From Nodosilinea sp. LEGE 07298 (GTDB taxonomy: Bacteria > Cyanobacteriota > Cyanobacteriia > Phormidesmidales > Phormidesmidaceae), in the NCBI RefSeq assembly GCF_015207265.1, contig NZ_JADEXE010000015.1, positions 1 through 45,865 of the forward strand: a DNA stretch of 45,865 bases. Reading direction: 5' to 3'. Positions 2,625 to 40,405 of this stretch are shown here, in pieces. Every line of letters starts with the position of its first letter. The first letter of the stretch is position 1. The notes below the pieces were generated by a model. It saw only the letters and a program-made list of their open reading frames with translations. It ran no database searches and had not been told where the DNA came from. The position numbers were made by a program, and so were the translations under genes.

Positions 2625-3113
2625 ATGAGCCAGAGTCCTCTCTATATCGATAAGGGCAGCACCCAAACCCTGCGAGAAGGGTTGGCGGAATACTATGCCC
2701 TTAATCCCCACATTACTGACCCAGCCTCGCAACCGCCGGACTTTGCCCAGATCCTGCGCGCCCACGATGTTGGCCATGTGATCTACGGCTGCGACACGGG
2801 CATGCACGACGAGCTAAAAATTCTGCCGCTGTTCTGGTGGACGAGTGAGTGCACGTTTCAAACCTATCTGGAGATGAAAAATTCCCCGGCTGTGGATTTG
2901 ATGTACGCCGACATGATTAAAGATAAGGGAACGCTCTGGTTGTACAGCTCCATTTTGAGGGTGCTGCCGGGGGTAATTTTGGAGCTGATTCCGATTTGGC
3001 TCAAGACCCGCGATCGCTCGAAACTGCTTCCATTTCTGGAGTTTGAGCCCTTGCTCGATCGCCTGCTGCTGGAGATTCGCCAAGAATTTGATTTGCTACC
3101 GTTGATGAAATAA
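2625..3113 (+). CDS. COQ4-like protein
   Basis: This 162-residue protein carries the COQ4 metal-binding signature HDxxH-x11-E, here His47, Asp48, His51 and Glu63 ('HDVGHVIYGC', then 'MHDE'). In eukaryotes COQ4 acts in ubiquinone ring modification and assembly of the CoQ complex. Cyanobacteria make plastoquinone rather than ubiquinone, so the substrate here is uncertain; a role in quinone or other lipid chemistry is possible. The C-terminal half is amphipathic and helical, as in the family. No clear Shine-Dalgarno sequence precedes the ATG. The adjacent TetR and its candidate operator suggest ligand-induced expression. Confidence 0.75.
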   Translation: MSQSPLYIDKGSTQTLREGLAEYYALNPHITDPASQPPDFAQILRAHDVGHVIYGCDTGMHDELKILPLFWWTSECTFQTYLEMKNSPAVDLMYADMIKDKGTLWLYSSILRVLPGVILELIPIWLKTRDRSKLLPFLEFEPLLDRLLLEIRQEFDLLPLMK

Positions 3114-3203
3114 TTCATGCGGCAACCAGCCCATAAGTCAGACGTCTCCACTCATTCTACGAACCGTCGCAGTTACGCGCGTTAGGACAGCCTAGCAGGT
3201 ACT

Positions 3204-4139
3204 TCAAGAGGGGTTCATCCCAACTGGCGGCTCAACTCCCGGCAAATTAGGAATTTCTGTTCTCAGAATTTCTAGAAAGCTCTGTAGCCGACGGGGTTGG
3301 TACGACTTTGACAGGGACGCCACATGAATCGGCAATTTTGGTGCGCGCCACTGGGGCAACAGGTCGATGAGTCGTCCATGATTTAAGTCCTCTTCGATGA
3401 ACCAGCGCGGCAATACGGCAATACCCAAACCTGCTAGCACCGCTCGGTGCAGGGCGAAGATGTTATTCGTCACCAGCCGTACTGAGGGTGACACCACGAT
3501 CGTCTTACCTGATGACTTAGATAGAGGAATACGCCCACCTTCGAAGGGTTCAAGGGCCACACAAGGCCATATCTCTAGATCACCAGGTGACTTAGGTTGA
3601 TGATAGACCTCTAGCAATTCAGGTGCCGCCACCATTAGACGCTCCACTTGCCCCAACGGTTCTATGGTGAGTGACTCATCGGGGACGGAGCCGATCTTAA
3701 TCCAGCAGTCACAGCCGACTTCAGCAAAGCGGATATTGCGGTCTTCCAGCTGCCAGGACAAGGATAGGAGGGGATGTTGTTTTTGAAACTGAAAGGCAGT
3801 ATCCGCTAGGTAAAGCTGCCCTAAAGCTATGGGAGCGACGACTTTGAGCTTGCCGCGTAGCGCGTCTTCTGTCTCTAAATGCTTCTCCTCCAAAGCCTCC
3901 CAGCTGTCGAGCAGGCGTCGAGCATCCGCCAGCAGTTCGGCTCCAACGGGTGTGAGTGACAAATCATGGGTAGTGCGTTGCATCAGTTGAGCGTTGAATC
4001 GCGACTCCAATTCGGCTAGCTGACGACTGACGGACGGCTGAGACAAGCCCAAGTCTCGCGCTGCCGCACTGATGCTGCCAGCATCCGCAATCCGCACGAA
4101 CGTTTGCAGTAGGGTTAGGCGATCTAAAGACTTGCTCAT
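3204..4139 (-). CDS. LysR-family transcriptional regulator
   Basis: I chose the ATG at 4139, which begins MSKSLDRLTLLQTF and gives 311 residues; this is the usual LysR start, with the HTH 'AGSISAAARDLGLSQPSVSR' at about residues 20-40. A longer frame reaches 4181 but adds only a non-conserved leader and would run through the inverted repeat upstream. The remainder is a LysR substrate-binding domain of the CrgA/PA2758-like type. The gene is divergent from a PRISE-type reductase, and LysR proteins commonly control the divergent neighbour. The inducer cannot be told from the sequence. Confidence 0.9.
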   Translation of the reverse strand: MSKSLDRLTLLQTFVRIADAGSISAAARDLGLSQPSVSRQLAELESRFNAQLMQRTTHDLSLTPVGAELLADARRLLDSWEALEEKHLETEDALRGKLKVVAPIALGQLYLADTAFQFQKQHPLLSLSWQLEDRNIRFAEVGCDCWIKIGSVPDESLTIEPLGQVERLMVAAPELLEVYHQPKSPGDLEIWPCVALEPFEGGRIPLSKSSGKTIVVSPSVRLVTNNIFALHRAVLAGLGIAVLPRWFIEEDLNHGRLIDLLPQWRAPKLPIHVASLSKSYQPRRLQSFLEILRTEIPNLPGVEPPVGMNPS

Positions 4140-7751: not shown

Positions 7752-8441
7752 ATGGACAAGATTCAGATTGGCTTTCTCATTTATCCCAGCGTGATTCAAC
7801 TGGATGTGATGGGGGCCTATCAGGTGCTGGCCTTTCCACACAATACCGACGTCCATCTGATTGGGAAGACCCTGACCCCTATTGTCAGCAACGAAGGGGT
7901 GACCCTAACCCCCACCGTCACTCTGGAGACTTGCCCGCCCCTGGATGTGATCTGCGTGCCCGGCGGTGGCATGGATCAGGTGGAGGCAATGAAAGACTCG
8001 GAAATTTTGAATTTTCTCAAACAGCAGAGTGCCACCGCCCAGTATGTCACCAGCGTTTGCACGGGCTCGATGATTCTGGCCGCGGCGGGGCTATTGCAAG
8101 GTTACAAAGCTACCTGTCACTGGGCTTTTCGCGATCAGCTTGCTGCCCTTGGCGTAGAAGTTGTGCCGCAGCGGGTGGTGATTGACCGAAACCGCATCAC
8201 TGGCGCTGGCGTCACCTCCGGCATCGATTTTGGGCTTGCACTTTTGAGTTTGCTCTGCGGTGAGCAAATTGCCAAAATGGCTCAGCTGATGATGGAATAT
8301 ACTCCTGAGCCACCGTTTGACGCAGGCACCCCTGAAACCGCAGGCGAGGAGGTTATGGAAGCGTTGCTCCAGGTAGGTAAGCCTTTGGTGGATGCCTTTT
8401 GGGCGCAAACCCAGGCCACAGCAGCCCAGCTAAAGGTGTAA
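7752..8441 (+). CDS. DJ-1/PfpI-family protein, isocyanide-hydratase-like
   Basis: This 229-residue protein has the DJ-1 fold with the nucleophile Cys103 in 'SVCTGSMILAAAGLL' and Asp18 in 'VIQLDVMGAY'. That pairing is characteristic of cyclohexyl-isocyanide hydratase (InhA). The C-terminal block 'GAGVTSGIDFGLALLSLL', then 'EYTPEPPFDAGTPETA', also fits that subfamily, which converts isocyanides to N-formamides. Glyoxalase III-type activity is the alternative. It is the first gene of a likely three-gene transcript facing away from a LuxR gene. Confidence 0.85.
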   Translation: MDKIQIGFLIYPSVIQLDVMGAYQVLAFPHNTDVHLIGKTLTPIVSNEGVTLTPTVTLETCPPLDVICVPGGGMDQVEAMKDSEILNFLKQQSATAQYVTSVCTGSMILAAAGLLQGYKATCHWAFRDQLAALGVEVVPQRVVIDRNRITGAGVTSGIDFGLALLSLLCGEQIAKMAQLMMEYTPEPPFDAGTPETAGEEVMEALLQVGKPLVDAFWAQTQATAAQLKV

Positions 8442-8444
8442 TCA

Positions 8445-8921
8445 ATGACTAACCAGGACATTGTGCTTCAGTTCTACCAGGCCTTCGACGATCGCCAGAT
8501 TGAGCAGGCCGTAGACCTGTTAGCCCCTAACTTTGTTGGCCACTTGGCGGGAATGCCTGCGCCGCTGGATAAGGCGCGGTTCCAGCAGTTTGGTCTGTCG
8601 TTTTACATGGCCTTCAGTCAAGGGAAACACTGCTTTGATCAGGTAATTGTGGCTGATGACAACGTGGTGACCTGCGGCACGTTTACCGCTATCCACAGTG
8701 GAAACTTTCAGGGGCTTCCACCCACAGGCAAGCCCATCAGCCTGGCCATTATGCATATCGATCGGGTTGAGAATGGTCAAATTGTGGAGCACTGGGGCCA
8801 GGGGGATGCCCTGGGGCTGATGCAGCAGTTGGGGATTGTCTTTCTGCCGGGGCCGAAGTTGTTGCTCCCGGTTCTGAAGAATACTGCCGCTAAGCTGTTC
8901 AAAACATCTCCCCAGAGTTAG
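8445..8921 (+). CDS. SnoaL-like (NTF2-fold) ester cyclase-type protein
   Basis: The gene starts 3 bases after the stop of the DJ-1 gene, so translation is probably coupled. The 158 residues show the SnoaL-like polyketide-cyclase pattern: 'IVLQFYQAFDDRQIEQAVDL' at the start, a central 'GTFTAIHSGNFQGLPPTGKP' and 'IVEHWGQGDALGLMQQLG' near the end. Many such proteins are small binding or isomerase proteins without a proven substrate. The tail after residue 130 is hydrophobic and then basic, which is longer than usual. Confidence 0.82.
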   Translation: MTNQDIVLQFYQAFDDRQIEQAVDLLAPNFVGHLAGMPAPLDKARFQQFGLSFYMAFSQGKHCFDQVIVADDNVVTCGTFTAIHSGNFQGLPPTGKPISLAIMHIDRVENGQIVEHWGQGDALGLMQQLGIVFLPGPKLLLPVLKNTAAKLFKTSPQS

Positions 8922-25190: not shown

Positions 25191-28100
25191 ATGCTTTCCA
25201 CGAGCAACCTCTCTGCGGCTCAGGCGGAGACCTATTACACCCACGAGGACTATTACTCGGCAGAGGAATCGGCTCACCCGACGCAGTGGGTGGGCAAAGG
25301 GGCTGCGTCGTTGGGTTTAGCTGGGACAGTGAGCCAGGAGGCGTTTAGCCAAATGCTCTCAGGGCAGGCTCCGGACGGGCGATCGCTGACAGGAAAAGTG
25401 GTTGACCCTGAGAAGCGCCGGGCGGCGACAGACTTTACCTTTAGCGCTCCGAAGAGTGTCAGCATTGCGGCCTTGGTGCAGCAGGATGAAAGGGTATTGG
25501 AGGCCCATCATCAAGCGGTAGCCAAGGCCCTCTCGGTGTTGGAAGAGCGCCATGCCCAAACACGAATTTCAACCGAGGCCGGGCGGACGAAGGTGACGAC
25601 GGGGAATATCGCGGCGGCAGTGTTCACCCATTCCACCAGTCGGGAGGCGGAGCCGCAACTGCATAGCCATTGTGTGGTGATGAATGCGACGCAGTTGGCC
25701 GATGGGCGGTGGTTTAGTTTAAGCAATGAGGCCGCGATCGCTAACCAAAAACTCCTGGGCCAGATCTACCAGAACGAACTGGCGGTAGCGCTGAAGCAGC
25801 AGGGATACCAGATTGAACCCAAGGCCCATGGGCAGTTTGAGTTGACAGGGTATTCCCCAGATCTGCTGAAGGCCTTCTCGACTCGGCGGCAACAGATCCT
25901 AAAGCTGATTGAGGAATGGGAGGCGACGGGGTCTGAGAACAATCGGTCGATGCGCGAGACGGCGACGCTTGTATCTCGGAAGCGGAAGCCCAAGGAGGTG
26001 GACGAGGGGCTACTGCAACGGGGGTGGGATGCGCTGATTCAGCTCAAGGGGTTGGAACTGCCGGAGTTACCCGAAGGAGTAGTTCGGTCACCTGCCGCAT
26101 TGCCATCGGCCCAATCGGTAATTGACGCCGCGATCCAGCACTGTGGGGAGCGGGAGTCGGTGTTTCGGCGGACAACGCTGGAGCGGTTTGTCTTTGAACA
26201 TGAACTAGGAGCCCAAAATTTTGAGGCGCTTCAACAAACCATTGCCCACAGCCCTGAACTGATCCGAGTGGCCGACGGCAAGTTCACCACCCAAACCGCA
26301 CTCAATCTCGAACTCAACACGATTCGTCTGATGCAGCAAGGACGGGGGCAGGTGATACCGCTTGTCCCCAGTGGTACCCAGTTAGAGAGCCTGGTGAGCC
26401 ACACCTTAAACCCCGAGCAGCAAAACGCGGTAGAGATGGCGGCGACCACACCGGATACCGTTATGGCGTGGCAAGGGGTGGCGGGGGCGGGCAAGACCTA
26501 TGCTCTAAGCGTGTTGAAGGATCTGGCTCAGGCGCAAGGTTACATGATCAGAGGGCTGGCCCCAAGCGCTGAAGCGGCCCATGTTTTGGGAGAGTCGTTG
26601 GGGATTGAGACCACTACCGTAGCGGGCCTATTGGTTTCTGATACCCCTGATCAAGCACCGCAACCCACGCTATGGATGGTGGACGAGGCGGGGCTGTTGA
26701 GCATGAAGGATGCCCAGGCCCTAATGCGGCGGGCAGCGTTGGAGCAGGCCAGGGTGCTCTTAGTTGGCGATACCCGGCAGCTTTCGGCAGTGGAAGCGGG
26801 TAATCCCTTCAAGAGTTTGCAGGCGGGGGGAATGACGACCGCTTATCTGGAAACCCATCGGCGACAGCAGAATGGGGTGCTGCGATCGGCTGTGGAATTG
26901 GTGGCCCAGGGGCAGGTCAGTGAAGGCATTGAGCTATTGGCTCAGGCCGGATATGTCAAGGAAGGGGCGGAGACTCGGGAACGGATCCAGCAGGTTGCCA
27001 CCGATTATCTAGCACTGGCGGCAGGAGAGCGGGCGACCACGCTCGTGCTGGCGGGGACGAATATGGAGCGGTTAGCCCTGACCCAAATGATGCGAGTAGG
27101 GTTACAGCATGAGGGGGCTTTGGGCGCGGATGGCTTTGTGATGCAGAGCCTACGCCGTAAGGATTTAACCACAGCTCAAGCCAGCTATCTCAAAGCCTAT
27201 GCCGTGGGCGATGTGCTGGTGCCGATCCAGGATTACCGGACGCAGGGGTTGATCAGAGGAGAGCAGTACCGAGTGATCGGGGTGAATTCCGAGGCTCAGC
27301 AGGTGGTGCTGGAGACGCCGAGTGGCTCAGTACTGTCGATCAATCCGGCAGCGTGCCCGCGCAAAACCCTCTATACAACTCAATCGATTTCGGTGGCGGT
27401 GGGCGATCGCCTCAGATGGACACGCAATGACCCCAAAGCCGGAATTCGCAATGGACAGGGGTTTGTGGTGACGGGGCTGGAGGCCGATGGGACGGCGACG
27501 ATTCAGGATGGAGCAGGGCAAACCTCAACCATCAACCTCAGCGGAAATCAGTATGTGGACTACGCCTGGGTGAGCACGACCTACAGCAGCCAAGGCAAGA
27601 CAGCGGAGCGGGTGCTGGCGCTGCTGGGCGAAACGACGAATCGAGAAGCCTTTTATGTGGCGATCTCCAGAGCCAAGCGAGCGGTGACGTTGTACACCAC
27701 CAGCCAGGCCGATCTGGTGCGACTGGCCCAGGTGTCACGGGCCAAGGAGAACGTAAGTGACTACGTGCCATTAACTCAACAGGTGATGACCTATGGACAA
27801 CATGAACAGCGGGAACAACGGCAGCCAGAACCCATCCCCGGATTTGACCCTAGAGCAGTGGGAGAGCGTATTGGCCACCGTGTTGCAGAACAGCTTAGAG
27901 CCGCTGCGGGCCGAGATTTGCGTCAACACGCAGCGGGTGCTGCACCTCGAAGACCAAGTCCAGACCTTGGGCGAGGAGTTGGCAATGTGGCCACAGCACT
28001 GGAACCAGAGCTTGGGGTGCTTAGTCGCGCAATTGCAGCGTATCGTCAGCGACGAGATCTCCTCCGATGCACAGGCGACCTTGCAGGAGCAGTTGCGGCT

Positions 28101-28532
28101 GTTAATTGCGGCTTTGAGCAGTTGGAACGGACAGCTCAAGACCGAGCTGGCTTTGCAGCAGCAGTTGATCGCGTCGCTAGAGCGGTTGGAAGGACGGTTG
28201 AGCGAGAGCAGCAAGGGGTAGATGCCCCTCAACCAAAGCTGATAAACACGAGGGAGCAGCTTTTGGCGCTTTGGGAGAAATACTCAGCTGGGTTGCCGTC
28301 AGCGAGTTTGGAGTTGCGGGTGGCCCAGCGGGCATTACGGGATGGGTGTTCGGCTAAGGAAGTGACGCTGATGCTGGTGGCTGGGAGTGAGACAGTGAGG
28401 CTGATCTATGACAAGCAAGGTAGGAAAGAGGCGATCGCCTTCGCAAAGCACATCATGACCATCGCTAGCCAACACCAAACCCCATCTACAGGTACGGAGC
28501 ATCATAGCTATGGGCTGGAAATAGGCGACTGA
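25191..28532 (+). CDS. MobF-family conjugative relaxase-helicase (TrwC/TraI type)
   Basis: The 1113-residue protein nicks and unwinds plasmid DNA for conjugation. The relaxase domain (about residues 1-310) shows the catalytic tyrosines in 'AETYYTHEDYYS' (Tyr15, 16, 21, 22), 'FTFSAPKSVSI' and the metal-binding His triad in 'PQLHSHCVVMNATQLADG'. The helicase domain has Walker A 'GVAGAGKTYAL' near residue 430, 'WMVDEAGLLS', 'VGDTRQLSAVE' and a RecD-like end 'AISRAKRAVTLY'. The last 240 residues carry a low-complexity segment and a compact end 'EQLLALWEKYSAGLPSASLE'. Bases 27793-28221 are open in a second frame too. No coupling protein or pilus genes are in this window. Confidence 0.93.
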   Translation: MLSTSNLSAAQAETYYTHEDYYSAEESAHPTQWVGKGAASLGLAGTVSQEAFSQMLSGQAPDGRSLTGKVVDPEKRRAATDFTFSAPKSVSIAALVQQDERVLEAHHQAVAKALSVLEERHAQTRISTEAGRTKVTTGNIAAAVFTHSTSREAEPQLHSHCVVMNATQLADGRWFSLSNEAAIANQKLLGQIYQNELAVALKQQGYQIEPKAHGQFELTGYSPDLLKAFSTRRQQILKLIEEWEATGSENNRSMRETATLVSRKRKPKEVDEGLLQRGWDALIQLKGLELPELPEGVVRSPAALPSAQSVIDAAIQHCGERESVFRRTTLERFVFEHELGAQNFEALQQTIAHSPELIRVADGKFTTQTALNLELNTIRLMQQGRGQVIPLVPSGTQLESLVSHTLNPEQQNAVEMAATTPDTVMAWQGVAGAGKTYALSVLKDLAQAQGYMIRGLAPSAEAAHVLGESLGIETTTVAGLLVSDTPDQAPQPTLWMVDEAGLLSMKDAQALMRRAALEQARVLLVGDTRQLSAVEAGNPFKSLQAGGMTTAYLETHRRQQNGVLRSAVELVAQGQVSEGIELLAQAGYVKEGAETRERIQQVATDYLALAAGERATTLVLAGTNMERLALTQMMRVGLQHEGALGADGFVMQSLRRKDLTTAQASYLKAYAVGDVLVPIQDYRTQGLIRGEQYRVIGVNSEAQQVVLETPSGSVLSINPAACPRKTLYTTQSISVAVGDRLRWTRNDPKAGIRNGQGFVVTGLEADGTATIQDGAGQTSTINLSGNQYVDYAWVSTTYSSQGKTAERVLALLGETTNREAFYVAISRAKRAVTLYTTSQADLVRLAQVSRAKENVSDYVPLTQQVMTYGQHEQREQRQPEPIPGFDPRAVGERIGHRVAEQLRAAAGRDLRQHAAGAAPRRPSPDLGRGVGNVATALEPELGVLSRAIAAYRQRRDLLRCTGDLAGAVAAVNCGFEQLERTAQDRAGFAAAVDRVARAVGRTVEREQQGVDAPQPKLINTREQLLALWEKYSAGLPSASLELRVAQRALRDGCSAKEVTLMLVAGSETVRLIYDKQGRKEAIAFAKHIMTIASQHQTPSTGTEHHSYGLEIGD
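27793..28221 (+). CDS. Nested reading frame inside the relaxase gene, coiled-coil-like 142-residue protein
   Basis: This frame lies wholly inside the relaxase gene in another frame. It starts with ATG preceded by AGGTGAT, a fair ribosome site. The product has heptad-like Leu spacing, as in 'LRAEICVNTQRVLHLEDQVQ' and 'ALQQQLIASLERLEGRLSES', and a balanced composition. The relaxase frame across the same bases is Ala/Arg-rich and low in complexity. I think both may be translated, with the nested protein perhaps an accessory mobilisation factor. It could also be chance in GC-rich DNA. Confidence 0.45.
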   Translation: MDNMNSGNNGSQNPSPDLTLEQWESVLATVLQNSLEPLRAEICVNTQRVLHLEDQVQTLGEELAMWPQHWNQSLGCLVAQLQRIVSDEISSDAQATLQEQLRLLIAALSSWNGQLKTELALQQQLIASLERLEGRLSESSKG

Positions 28533-29090: not shown

Positions 29091-29093
29091 TTG

Positions 29094-29489
29094 ATGATTC
29101 AACGGCTTATTCTCGAAGATGAAGCAAACACCTATAGCGTTCTGGTTGAGTCAACCTTAGCGTCTCCTATGCGCAGCGTTGATGAGGGTTTCGATTCTTA
29201 CGATCTGGATACACCCAGAGGAAGTGTTTCAGGAATCCGTCAGCCTCAAATTACACCTGAGCTAAGGGTCAAGTTGGCAGACGTGCACCGCACGATCCAA
29301 GGTTACACGCAATATGCCATTGGGGCATTTAAGGACTTAGCAATCGCAGAGGTTGAGGAGATTACCCTGCGCTTCAATCTCAAAATCACTGCGGAGGGGG
29401 GTCTGCCCATGATCGCCAGCGGTAAAGCAGAGTCAGATTTTGCGATCGAGGTGAAGTGCAAATTCCCTACGTCTGGCTCTAAGGGCTAG
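29094..29489 (+). CDS. Trypco1-like (CU044_2847 family) protein
   Basis: The start is the ATG at 29094, seven bases after AGGGAG; 131 residues. The C-terminal half matches the Trypsin-co-occurring domain 1: 'VEEITLRFNLKITAEGGLPM', then 'IASGKAESDFAIEVKCKF'. The N-terminus supplies a beta strand, 'ILEDEANTYSVLVES'. Trypco1 proteins are small companions of trypsin-like peptidases in bacterial conflict systems, where they are thought to be substrates or signal adapters. A trypsin-like gene lies about 3.5 kb away on the other strand. A direct link is inferred. Confidence 0.7.
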   Translation: MIQRLILEDEANTYSVLVESTLASPMRSVDEGFDSYDLDTPRGSVSGIRQPQITPELRVKLADVHRTIQGYTQYAIGAFKDLAIAEVEEITLRFNLKITAEGGLPMIASGKAESDFAIEVKCKFPTSGSKG

Positions 29490-36684: not shown

Positions 36685-39273
36685 TTAGCCCTCAACTTCC
36701 ACTGCGCCCAACGCCCTCAGAACCCCAACCTGGGCAGCGGTCAACCCCGTAACTCCAATAATATTCATCTCTTCGTAGGGGCGGTTACTTCTTAACACCC
36801 TTAAACACTCTCCCGTTTCAGTATTCCAGATTCTAATCGTGCCATCTTCACTACAACTCGCCAGCGCCTGCCCATCATCGCCAAACGCAACCGACCACAC
36901 AATCTGGCTGTGGCCCTCTAAAATCTGCAAGCAATCCCCAGTCGCCGCATCCCACAACTTAATAGCATAGTCTTCGCCTCCACTCGCCACCCAGCGCCCA
37001 TCCGGGCTAAACGCCACCGCCCGAATGCGCCCCCCGTGGGCCGGTTGAGACCACAGGCATTGGCCCGTCGCCACATCCCAAAGCTTCAGCATCCGATCGC
37101 CGCTGCCGCTGGCCAAAAACCGACCACAGGGGCTAAACCCCAGAGAAAGCACCCAATCTTGATGCCCCTCCAGCGTAGCGAGACAAGCCCCCGTTTCCAC
37201 GCTCCAGAGCTGAATGGCGTGATCATCCCCCCCACTGGCCATCATCCCACCTTGGGGGCTAACAGCTACCGCCTTAACTCGACCTTCGTGGCCTTGCAAC
37301 GTCTGCAAACACTGCCCAGTCGCCACATCCCACAACTTAATCGTCTTATCGTGACTACCACTCAGCACCTGCTGCCCACTGGGGCTAACGCATACCGATT
37401 GCACCCAATCCGTATGCCCCATCAACACCTGGCGACAGTCCCCTATCTGGGCATCCCACAAGCGCACCGTACAGTCATCGCTGCCGCTGGCCAGCCAGGT
37501 ACCGTCCGGGCTAAAGGCAACGCTAGAAATTAGATTGGTGTGGCCTGCCAAGGTGCGATCGCACCTGCCCGTCTCCAAATTCCACAGCCGCACCATCTGG
37601 TCTTCGCCTCCGGAGGCCACCAGCGGCGCAATCGGGCTAGCCGCGATCGCCACAATCCAATCGCTGTGGGCCTTGATGGTTTTCAAGCAGTCTCCCGTGC
37701 GGGTATCCCATAGCTTGAGAGTTTGATCGTCACTGGCGCTGACCAGAGTATAGCCATCGGGGCTAAACTCCACCAGCCACACTCGGGCCGAGTGGCTCTC
37801 TAGCGTCTTCAGGCACTGGTTCGTTTGGGTACTCCAAAGACGCACCGTATTGTCTTCTCCAGCAGTGGCCAGCAGCTCACCATCGGGGCTGTAGTCCACC
37901 GCCCAAACCTTGATTGCATAGTCGGGCAGCGTGCCTAGGCGATCGCCCGTTTCCACATCCCAACGCTCAACAACCGTGGTACTTTGGCTGGCTGCAATTT
38001 CCTGGCCCCTTGGGTGCAGGGCTAACCCCAGAGCCCAACCGACATCAATTGCCAGCGATCGCAGACAATCCCCCGATTGCAGATCCCAAAGCTTAACGGT
38101 GCGATCGTCCCCACTGCTGATTAACATCAGCTGGTTGGGATGAAACTTCAACGAGAGCACCCGGTTAGTGTGCCCCGACAAAGTTTGCCTACAGTCCCCC
38201 GTTTGGGCATCCCAAAGCCGAATCTCGGCCTCATTGCCAGCGCTAGCGATGGTTCCCCCATCGGGGCTAAAATCCACCGTCTGCACCCAACTGCTGTGCC
38301 CCGGCAATGTGCGCAAGCAGGCTCCAGAGTTCACCTCCCACAGCCGCACCGTCTGGTCATGGCTACCACTGGCCAATGTTTGACCGTCGGGGCTAAAGCA
38401 CAGCGCTGTGACCCAGGCCGTATGCCCCTTAAAGCTCAGCACCTGGCGACCATCGGCTACATGGATTAGCAAAATGGATTGATCGACCCCCACCGCCAGA
38501 TATGCCCCATCTGGGCTGAAGGTGGCCGACAGAATGCAGCCTAGAACTTGGGTGAAAACTGACTTTGTCAGGTCTGCATAGGCAAAGCTGACCTCGTGGA
38601 GCGCCATGCCCTGCAAATATACCTGCCACACCGCCAGATGAGAAAAGTCGTAGCCTTTCAGGTCAATCCCCATCTGCCACAGCAGATTGAGCAGGTTTCC
38701 GGCGGCATAGCCTGGCTTATCTCTCAGCGTGGCCTTTAGCTGAGCCAAGAACTGGCTGAAGTGGGCCTGGGCAAAGTTGCGGCTGCCAAAGGTCTCCAGC
38801 AGCTTGGTCGCCAGCGGCTTCAGCAGCAGGCGAATTTGGGCCTCTCGCAGGTAGTCTTTGGCCTGGGCATTAATCAAAAACTGATGGTTGAGTAGGTCAA
38901 CCTCAAGAGCGCAAATCTCTTGATAAATCTGGTCAATCACATGATTAACCACATACTCCATCACCACCGGCTGTTGCGAAAACCTCACCTGATGGTCGTC
39001 GAGGGGTAAGCTGGTGGACTTTTCAATCAGCGATCGCCGCTCTAACGACAGCAACACCTCCAGAAGTTCCACCTGAGACGTAGATGGCATTAGCTCTTCC
39101 CGAATTTCCTGCGGCAGCACCCACTCGCGATGCACCGCCACCCACTCCATCACCCGCTGCTCCAGGGGCGACAACCGGCTAAATTGTTGATCAATTAGAT
39201 TGGCGACATCGCCGAAAACGGTGGTGCCGCAGGCTAAAAACTGCTGAATGCTGGCATTGAACAGCTCCTGCAC
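36685..39273 (-). CDS. STAND NTPase, C-terminal part: winged-helix region and 14 WD40 repeats
   Basis: The 862-residue frame begins inside the STAND gene, after the frameshift at 39308-39313. Its first 240 residues contain 'FSRLSPLEQRVMEWVAVHRE', the winged-helix region of NB-ARC proteins, and a helical bundle. About 14 WD40 repeats follow, many with 'SPDG' turns and 'KLWD' ends, enough for two seven-bladed propellers. Several blades are near-identical, for example 'LWDVATGQCLQTLQGH'. The propellers are the sensor part of STAND switches. No independent start or ribosome site is evident, so this is half of one gene, not a separate one. Confidence 0.85.
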   Translation of the reverse strand: MQELFNASIQQFLACGTTVFGDVANLIDQQFSRLSPLEQRVMEWVAVHREWVLPQEIREELMPSTSQVELLEVLLSLERRSLIEKSTSLPLDDHQVRFSQQPVVMEYVVNHVIDQIYQEICALEVDLLNHQFLINAQAKDYLREAQIRLLLKPLATKLLETFGSRNFAQAHFSQFLAQLKATLRDKPGYAAGNLLNLLWQMGIDLKGYDFSHLAVWQVYLQGMALHEVSFAYADLTKSVFTQVLGCILSATFSPDGAYLAVGVDQSILLIHVADGRQVLSFKGHTAWVTALCFSPDGQTLASGSHDQTVRLWEVNSGACLRTLPGHSSWVQTVDFSPDGGTIASAGNEAEIRLWDAQTGDCRQTLSGHTNRVLSLKFHPNQLMLISSGDDRTVKLWDLQSGDCLRSLAIDVGWALGLALHPRGQEIAASQSTTVVERWDVETGDRLGTLPDYAIKVWAVDYSPDGELLATAGEDNTVRLWSTQTNQCLKTLESHSARVWLVEFSPDGYTLVSASDDQTLKLWDTRTGDCLKTIKAHSDWIVAIAASPIAPLVASGGEDQMVRLWNLETGRCDRTLAGHTNLISSVAFSPDGTWLASGSDDCTVRLWDAQIGDCRQVLMGHTDWVQSVCVSPSGQQVLSGSHDKTIKLWDVATGQCLQTLQGHEGRVKAVAVSPQGGMMASGGDDHAIQLWSVETGACLATLEGHQDWVLSLGFSPCGRFLASGSGDRMLKLWDVATGQCLWSQPAHGGRIRAVAFSPDGRWVASGGEDYAIKLWDAATGDCLQILEGHSQIVWSVAFGDDGQALASCSEDGTIRIWNTETGECLRVLRSNRPYEEMNIIGVTGLTAAQVGVLRALGAVEVEG

Positions 39274-40405
39274 CGTCGTCGAGACAATGCGTAAGGCCAG
39301 GGGATTGCCCCCCGTACTGCTCCACTAATGCCTGGGCTTCCTGCGCCGATGGGGTGAGCCCTCTCGCCGTCAAAAGCTGCTGGCCTGGTTGATAGCTCAG
39401 CCCTTGTAGACGGAGCGATCGCAGCCCGCTACCTTCTCTAGAAAATAGCCCCAGGGGTTGCTCTCGGCTGGTAAACACCAGACAGCTCTGGTGACGGCTC
39501 TCGGCAACACAGCGCAGAATCTGGCCGTAGGCCTCATAGCCAGAGCGATACGCCCCGGTGCCATCCTGCCCCTGAAGCACAGACTCAACGTTATCGAGAA
39601 CGATCAGACGGCGGGCGGTTTGCAGACACCCAATCAGCTGCAACAGTTGGCTATCCCAGGTGTCTGCCAAGGGGACGTCCTGACGGGGGGACAGAAATCG
39701 GATCGAGTCAGCCAGCAGCGGGTCAGCCGGGGGTGCGTTGCGGAGCGATCGCCACATCACAGCCTCAAACTCACCGCTCAGCTGCTCAGCCAGCTTCACC
39801 GCCAGGGTCGTTTTGCCCACGCCCCCCATGCCCAGCACCCCCACCAGGCGGCAGTTGTCCCTCAAAATCCATTCCTTCAGCACCGTCAGCTCATCATCTC
39901 GCCCGTAAATCAGAGGAATTTCTGGAGCATCCCCCCAGTCCTGCCGGGCTACAGATGCTTCTGAGATTTGAGACGGCAGCGGCGGCGAGGTTTGGGTGGC
40001 CTGGTGAGATTTGAGCGGGCGGAGGCGTTCCCATTCTGCTTCGAGCTTGGCTAGATTGGCCGCCACATCCTGCCGTCGATGCCACAGCTTGAGGGTAAAG
40101 TGCCAGTCCTCGGAACCCTGGGTGGCAGGACGATTATCCTCCAAAATGCCAAGAAAATCTTGCAGCCGCTTCAAGACTTCGCGAATCTGCTCAGGGGTGA
40201 GCTGGCCATCGTAAGTATCTTGCGCTGTTAAGTAAACCAGATAACGTACTTTAGTTCTGACAACCAATTGCCTATCGGTTTGCCAGTTTACCTGTAGCCG
40301 CACAACATCAGGCTCGTCCCAATCTTGGTTAGCGTAGGCCAAAAGTGCTGCCAGTAGGCGTTTCGTGCGCTGCTTTACCTGGGGTCCGTAGTTTGGTCTT
40401 GCCAT
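39191..40405 (-). CDS. STAND NTPase, N-terminal part: effector-associated region and NB-ARC domain, frameshifted
   Basis: The first 130 residues ('RPNYGPQVKQRTKRLLAALL' onward) are a conserved cyanobacterial N-terminal region of unknown role. The NB-ARC NTPase follows, with Walker A 'VLGMGGVGKTTLA' near residues 190-202, Walker B 'RRLIVLDNVESVL' and the sensor 'LVFTSREQPLG'. At six G residues (C6 at 39308-39313 on the plus strand) the frame goes wrong and ends in about 40 unrelated residues. With five G it would read 'EQYGGNPLALRIVSTTVQEL' and continue into the WD40 frame as one protein of about 1240 residues. As written, the switch protein is broken; a base-call error is possible. Confidence 0.82.
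   Translation of the reverse strand: MARPNYGPQVKQRTKRLLAALLAYANQDWDEPDVVRLQVNWQTDRQLVVRTKVRYLVYLTAQDTYDGQLTPEQIREVLKRLQDFLGILEDNRPATQGSEDWHFTLKLWHRRQDVAANLAKLEAEWERLRPLKSHQATQTSPPLPSQISEASVARQDWGDAPEIPLIYGRDDELTVLKEWILRDNCRLVGVLGMGGVGKTTLAVKLAEQLSGEFEAVMWRSLRNAPPADPLLADSIRFLSPRQDVPLADTWDSQLLQLIGCLQTARRLIVLDNVESVLQGQDGTGAYRSGYEAYGQILRCVAESRHQSCLVFTSREQPLGLFSREGSGLRSLRLQGLSYQPGQQLLTARGLTPSAQEAQALVEQYGGQSPGLTHCLDDGAGAVQCQHSAVFSLRHHRFRRCRQSN

Follow-up and report, generated by a model that had tools for sequence, protein, structure and literature searches.

Does the gene of a cyanobacterial relaxase carry a second gene within its own coding sequence? The question is raised by the contig NZ_JADEXE010000015.1 of Nodosilinea sp. 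LEGE 07298 (assembly GCF_015207265.1), of which a stretch of 45,865 nucleotides was analysed (positions 1 to 45,865 of the forward strand, here called the window). Within the window, an open reading frame (ORF) at 27793-28221 lies wholly inside a MOBF relaxase gene, in the +1 frame relative to the relaxase (frame 0). We think that this ORF is probably a real protein-coding gene, nested in the C-terminal linker of the relaxase, and that its product is a probable mobilisation accessory. The comparison of related copies shows that both frames are kept open, that purifying selection acts on the +1 protein and that the relaxase is read on through the overlap to a conserved tail.

The relaxase and the nested frame

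The host gene is predicted to encode a relaxase of the MOBF (TrwC/TraI) type, with an N-terminal TrwC domain followed by a superfamily 1 (SF1) helicase part. In a Pfam scan, amino acids 9-281 matched TrwC (PF08751, E 7.3e-84) and amino acids 405-593 matched AAA_30 (PF13604, E 1.8e-53); PF22232 was also matched in the helicase part (E 5.6e-18). Full-length relatives are 68-88% identical to it, the closest named ones being from Nodosilinea and other Leptolyngbya-like cyanobacteria. The source genome amounts to 7.25 Mb in 617 contigs.

A preliminary description, made from the letters of the DNA, had pointed to an ATG-started frame of 142 codons within this gene, with a fair ribosome site and a coiled-coil-like product, over which the relaxase frame is rich in Ala and Arg. 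The frame was found exactly as described, and AGGTGA ends six bases 5' of its ATG (Table 1). AlphaFold models the product as two long helices (residues 20-87 and 91-141), in agreement with a coiled coil, at moderate confidence (mean predicted local distance difference test, pLDDT, 74). The Ala/Arg-rich composition of the relaxase linker was also confirmed, and arises because the Leu/Gln/Glu-rich codons of the nested frame are read one base off. For the linker, AlphaFold gives block means of about 40-75, and in the tail behind it residues 160-236 of model A4 reach a pLDDT of about 90.

Selection in the two frames

Close copies were compared in a set of 23, comprising the source copy and the loci L001-L014, L085-L090, L092 and L093; L015 and more distant loci were excluded. 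Over the overlap, frame 0 is free of stops in all 23 copies, the +1 frame in 19 and the +2 frame in none (mean 8.4 stops). The comparison of synonymous change in both frames, which the preliminary description had suggested as a check, came out in favour of a second protein. The diversity at relaxase third positions falls from 0.311 upstream to 0.081 in the overlap (its first 20 codons excluded) and rises again to 0.486 in the tail. The corresponding values for first and second positions are 0.104 and 0.056 upstream, 0.170 and 0.064 in the overlap, and 0.296 and 0.252 in the tail. Over the whole overlap, frame-0 first positions are more variable than second and third ones.

Changes were further sorted by their effect in both frames, which gives dN/dS-like ratios for the +1 frame (dNN/dNS) and for frame 0 (dNN/dSN). 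In the overlap the +1 ratio was 0.27 (0.19-0.36) and the frame-0 ratio 0.65 (0.46-0.94), the intervals being codon bootstraps that ignore kinship and whose codons are not independent. The same +1 calculation, applied to stretches read in frame 0 only, gave 0.79 (0.63-0.99) upstream and 1.03 (0.89-1.22) in the tail. Mean amino acid identity in the overlap is 0.87 in the +1 frame vs 0.79 in the relaxase frame, and the insertions and deletions of the region preserve both frames.

Three further MOBF groups gave +1 ratios of 0.36 (0.18-0.62; L019 group, 5 copies), 0.48 (0.32-0.70; L181 group, 4 copies) and 0.66 (0.51-0.84; L185 group, 5 copies). Their frame-0 ratios in the overlap were 0.86, 1.29 and 1.00, with all intervals including 1, whereas the flanks of the same relaxases lay at 0.20-0.35 upstream and 0.35-0.62 in the tail. 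Of the two frames, the nested one is therefore better protected, and the relaxase frame is chiefly an open linker leading to the tail. This agrees with the earlier suggestion that the relaxase sequence is constrained by the other frame. The relaxase end beyond the overlap had likewise been described as conserved, and a conserved tail is indeed reached, only in the relaxase frame. Three lines of evidence thus support the proposal that both frames may be real: the selection seen on the +1 frame in four groups, a conserved start with its upstream site and the conserved tail.

It could be argued from these figures that the nested gene alone is of importance in the overlap, and that the relaxase frame is a neutral linker, held open just for translation of the tail. 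We regard this as a serious contender, although the less probable reading: the frame-0 ratios of the three additional groups and the better conservation of the +1 protein speak for it, while the frame-0 ratio of the source clade, with its interval below 1, and helix-like motifs (GERIG.RVAEQL, for example), which by eye recur when distant relatives are read in frame 0, speak against it.

Distribution among cyanobacteria

The nested gene is not confined to the close copies. The source genome itself holds a paralogue, L019, whose relaxase is 52% identical and which carries at the same spot a +1 ORF of 161 amino acids starting with MPRPRK. Nested proteins of distant copies share 42-65% identity. 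Matches to the nested protein were found in 21 of 143 related genomes, and the relaxase tail was likewise detected in 21 of the 143. A match in G132, which sits in an unrelated gene, and one in G033, which has no relaxase match, were dropped. When 388 genomes of the class were searched with profile A1, 52 had a match (22 at E <= 1e-10), including three genomes of another family (G178, G207 and G271). Most of the weaker matches are weak coiled-coil matches and were not counted, except those traced to relaxases.

Among 36 further loci, 33 had a MOBF match; 19 of these bear a nested +1 ORF and 12 do not. The remaining two are L177, with an internal deletion, and L186, cut by the contig end just after MPRPRK and labelled as lacking the ORF in the tree. 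In L192, L202 and L204 the ORFs that a script had called were off the nested site or unrelated-looking and were counted as absent; the +1 ORF of L205 (231 amino acids, AAGGAG site) was counted as nested by position alone. Nostoc-type MOBF relaxases and those of about 900 amino acids are without the nested ORF, and L102 and L103 have the tail and a short linker without it. In a tree of the relaxase core with 60 rows, one fully supported group of 42 rows contains 38 of the 39 nested-bearing ones, and the nested label needs 4 changes vs a mean of 17.4 after shuffling. As judged from this tree, the history is one of a single old gain and a few losses, plus L205 outside the group.

Some of these loci show further peculiarities. 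L194 (G201:C53) and L195 (G201:C120) encode MOBF relaxases of 668 and 731 amino acids, in whose nested MPRPRK ORF a segment appears duplicated in both frames; the 668-residue relaxase has a TrwC domain match and no helicase family match. In L205 (G169:C4, 1083-1775 of the minus strand and beyond), a distant MOBF gene, the AAGGAG-preceded +1 ORF overlaps the relaxase end and continues past the relaxase stop into a hydrophobic stretch and a basic end; in this it is similar to the nested proteins described below for MOBP-type relaxases.

Known nested mobilisation genes and the probable role

Whole genes within a relaxase ORF have precedents. In ColE1 (NC_001371), where mbeA (MOBP) is in frame 1, mbeB (2868-3386) and mbeD (3393-3626) lie in frame 2, that is, in the same relative +1 frame as here, and MbeD is likewise a short, Leu/Gln-rich, helical-looking protein. 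The two systems differ in that the host relaxase is here of the MOBF type with a helicase, and in that a single nested gene is followed by a conserved tail domain. TraI of F/R1 and TrwC of R388 share with our relaxase the order of a TrwC relaxase domain and a helicase, and we know of no out-of-frame gene described in them. The available sections of the literature on RSF1010 place mobB within mobA/repB (MOBQ) in a different frame (PMC2200642; PMC5572225), and those on MOBP plasmids report overlapping mobA, mobB and mobC ORFs (PMC3832669). The accessible text of PMC8683028 and PMC12857230 describes no nested gene, and no description of one in a MOBF relaxase was found in the open-licence literature. 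The nested arrangement is thus known from other transfer relaxases, but apparently not from MOBF.

Translation of the nested gene would most likely begin on the relaxase mRNA at a separate ribosome-binding site, as the conserved ATG, the Shine-Dalgarno-like site and the upstream stops suggest, and a small helical coiled-coil protein would thus be made alongside the relaxase. By analogy with MbeB/MbeD or MobB, we hypothesize that this protein most likely aids relaxosome assembly or docking by binding either the relaxase in whose gene it is encoded or the coupling protein. The relaxase tail, in turn, may carry a signal for the secretion channel. Tails of relatives mostly end in LEIGD or similar (alignment A4). 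According to the available part of PMC3912908, translocation signals lie inside TraI, and short terminal signals are typical elsewhere. The tail had no Pfam match, and a fold search with the relaxase C-terminus returned nothing at E <= 0.001. Since the source genome has seven matches to TrwB-type coupling proteins, a partner in the channel is at hand.

A role outside mobilisation, such as plasmid entry exclusion, partition or regulation, is conceivable, and we consider it unlikely. ColE1 MbeD is annotated as a mobilization/exclusion protein, a ParM/StbA-like gene adjoins mobF in related plasmids, and DNA binding is conceivable for the basic MPRPRK start seen in distant relatives. Among the loci examined, however, the gene stays within relaxases of two families and is not found beside other genes, which points to the transfer machinery.

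Initiation of the nested gene

The start of the nested gene is conserved. Its Met is invariant in alignments A1 and A2, and in distant MOBF genes, including the own-genome paralogue, the start lies at the same place, often as MPRPRK, and a ribosome-binding site usually precedes it. Such a site is clear in L098, L100, L175 and L205, which have AAGGAG (AGGAG or longer), and in most of the source clade, which has AGGTGA. The mean duplex energy with the anti-Shine-Dalgarno sequence is -7.0 kcal/mol for 44 nested starts vs -3.5 for a control set, the 725 remaining +1 ATGs in these stretches, and 68% vs 19% reach -6 or lower, in rows that are not independent of kinship. The nearest in-frame +1 stop lies at a median of 2 codons before the nested ATG in the 44 genes.

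These features bear on the proposal that a programmed frameshift near 27793 gives the relaxase an alternative C-terminus, formed by the nested protein. The +1 frame does follow directly behind the helicase part, such a fusion would also place the +1 frame under selection, and in L175, L194, L195 and L205 the upstream stop is 26 or more codons away. Nevertheless, in the other genes a stop generally stands just ahead of the ATG, and the invariant Met would be needless for a fusion, so that we hold a frameshift to be very unlikely. The conserved start, the ribosome-binding site and the in-frame stop about 2 codons upstream speak for a nested gene that is initiated afresh.

Chance openness and constraints other than a protein

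In 5000 synonymous shuffles of the relaxase, the +1 frame had on average 3.9 stops over the 142 codons and was free of stops in 0.52% of cases, and the longest +1 opening had a mean of 79 and a 99th percentile of 136 codons, with 143 observed. In the reverse shuffle, with the nested protein fixed, frame 0 stayed open in 9% (own codon pool) or 0.12% (relaxase codon usage). The single sequence is therefore only moderately surprising, and the comparison of copies is decisive. It is highly improbable, on this comparison, that the +1 frame is no gene and stays open just as a by-product of codon composition and shared descent. Coding that is rich in Ala, Arg and GC opens other frames, as the stop-free shuffles illustrate, a minus-strand ORF also covers the region, and some close copies contain stops. 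But a by-product would leave frame-0 third positions free to vary, which is contradicted; it would give a +1 ratio near 1, where all four groups lie below 1; and it predicts no protein similarity between distant copies, where such similarity is seen. The minus-strand ORF (27771-28232, 153 amino acids, TTG start) is itself probably a by-product of composition.

The least probable source of the constraint is a DNA or RNA element, such as an origin of transfer or an RNA structure, since, although relaxase genes often adjoin transfer origins and such an element would likewise lower synonymous change, it would not maintain a period of three that is offset by one base, with frame-0 first positions varying most, nor insertions and deletions that keep both frames.

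Points against a functional nested gene

Several observations weigh against our interpretation, in addition to the effect of kinship on the bootstrap intervals and on the ribosome-site comparison. The role is drawn from position, shape and precedent, and the evidence for the gene itself is comparative. Within the overlap, the relaxase frame showed no significant constraint in three of the four groups, and so for these the claim on that frame rests on its openness and on the tail. The nested protein belongs to no named family, fold or solved structure beyond generic coiled-coil or insignificant matches in Pfam, NCBIfam, PHROGs, solved-structure and fold searches. Its profile has an hhalign probability of 5% with ColE1 MbeD, and no MbeB/MbeD family appeared in a Pfam scan at E <= 1; the label of MbeD homologue was dropped on the failed profile comparison. 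The search against plasmid proteins advised in the preliminary description gave no match (E <= 1), nor did one against phages; the nested proteins of L019 and L205 also had no match among plasmids.

Stops in close relatives had been named as the finding that would tell against the nested gene, and they do occur. Four of the 23 close copies (L003, L011, L012 and L014) are each broken by one or two internal TAG codons, and a TGA copy of G007 and L217, one of three MOBP-type copies, are interrupted too. On the other hand, all the broken close copies are in genomes that also hold intact ones: 3 of 6 copies are broken in LEGE 07088 (G016) and 2 of 3 in CCT1 (G007), each beside intact copies. The broken copies may thus reflect relief where another plasmid provides the protein in trans. 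The stops of L003, L011, L012, L014 and L217 are all TAG, as from Gln CAG codons. In G004, a TAG stands at about the normal end of the nested frame.

Nested genes in MOBP-type relaxases

Nested +1 ORFs are also present in all five cyanobacterial MOBP-type loci (L196, L206, L213, L214 and L217), and L206 carries two of them, in a layout resembling that of ColE1. The relaxase domain PF03432 was found by Pfam scan in L206 and L213; L196, L214 and L217 were classed as MOBP-type by likeness. These loci share with the MOBF genes the +1 nesting, coiled-coil-like proteins, the frame flip of variation (seen in the L213/L214/L217 trio) and a homologous relaxase tail. They differ in the relaxase domain (PF03432 in the two loci named) and in a nested protein that gains a hydrophobic C-terminus, a stretch of which none was seen by eye in the product of 27793-28221. 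RSF1010 MobB ends in a hydrophobic stretch, as the MOBP-type nested proteins do.

In this trio, variable sites make up a share of 0.524 of the frame-0 third positions before, 0.084 in and 0.542 behind the nested stretch. With a profile built from 13 MOBF tails, matches were obtained at the ends of L217, L213, L214, L196 and L206 at E 7e-23 to 5e-7 in a database of 6 sequences, and hhalign gave 99.1% for the MOBF tail profile with the L213 group. The same tail profile did not match L019, whose tail resembles that of L206 by eye only. The MOBF nested profile A2 matched the second nested protein of L206 (probability 95%, E 2e-8, 88 columns), with the ColE1 MbeD control at 5%. The nested proteins of both families are likely, though not proven, to be homologous, the reservation being due to coiled coils, which inflate such scores.

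It is tempting to propose, as a quite plausible but tentative idea, that cyanobacterial relaxases of the unrelated MOBF and MOBP-type families share a transferable C-terminal dual-coding module, moved between families as DNA and made of a nested coiled-coil gene in the linker and then a helical tail by which the secretion channel would recognise the relaxase. In plasmid NC_011733.1 of Gloeothece citriformis, a weak match to the L206 nested protein (8275-8487, E 2e-4) falls inside an annotated MobQ relaxase gene; it is perhaps a nested gene in a third relaxase family.

Features of the locus and neighbouring genes

The features of the relaxase region are collected in Table 1. Just behind this region, a small plus-strand gene at 29091-29486 has a Trypco1 (trypsin-co-occurring) domain. 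On the minus strand at 36688-40405, an EAD4/NB-ARC gene adjoins a large WD40 repeat gene, a pair that looks like a conflict or signalling system.

Table 1. Features of the MOBF relaxase region, in coordinates of the window
Feature	Position	Strand	Basis
Predicted MOBF relaxase-helicase gene, 1113 amino acids, frame 0	25191..28532	+	Pfam domains and full-length relatives
Relaxase-frame linker hosting the nested gene; rich in Ala and Arg, free of stops in every close copy, under weak constraint	27771..28247	+	Dual-frame ratios, stop counts, AlphaFold
Shine-Dalgarno-like AGGTGAT of the nested gene	27781..27787	+	Sequence; anti-Shine-Dalgarno duplex energy -9.4 kcal/mol
Two in-frame +1 stops, TGA TGA, immediately before the nested ATG	27784..27789	+	Sequence
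Probable nested +1 gene, 142 amino acids, helical coiled-coil-like protein; stop TAG 28219-28221	27793..28221	+	ORF list, selection, relatives, AlphaFold
Conserved helical relaxase tail domain, frame 0 only	28248..28478	+	AlphaFold, genome search, tail profile
Relaxase C-terminus LEIGD, possible secretion signal	28515..28529	+	Alignment A4

Significance

Long out-of-frame bacterial genes with clear evolutionary support have seldom been demonstrated, and annotation pipelines tend to discard them. The nested gene described here is conserved across many cyanobacterial plasmid-transfer genes and has seemingly been overlooked. If the idea of a transferable module is true, one recombination step gives a relaxase both a tail and a partner protein, with two frames carried at once. 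With MOBQ (RSF1010), MOBP (ColE1) and now MOBF, our results suggest that relaxase linkers repeatedly host the genes of their own accessory proteins. Should the nested product be a partner of the relaxase, it would constitute an unrecognised component of cyanobacterial DNA transfer.

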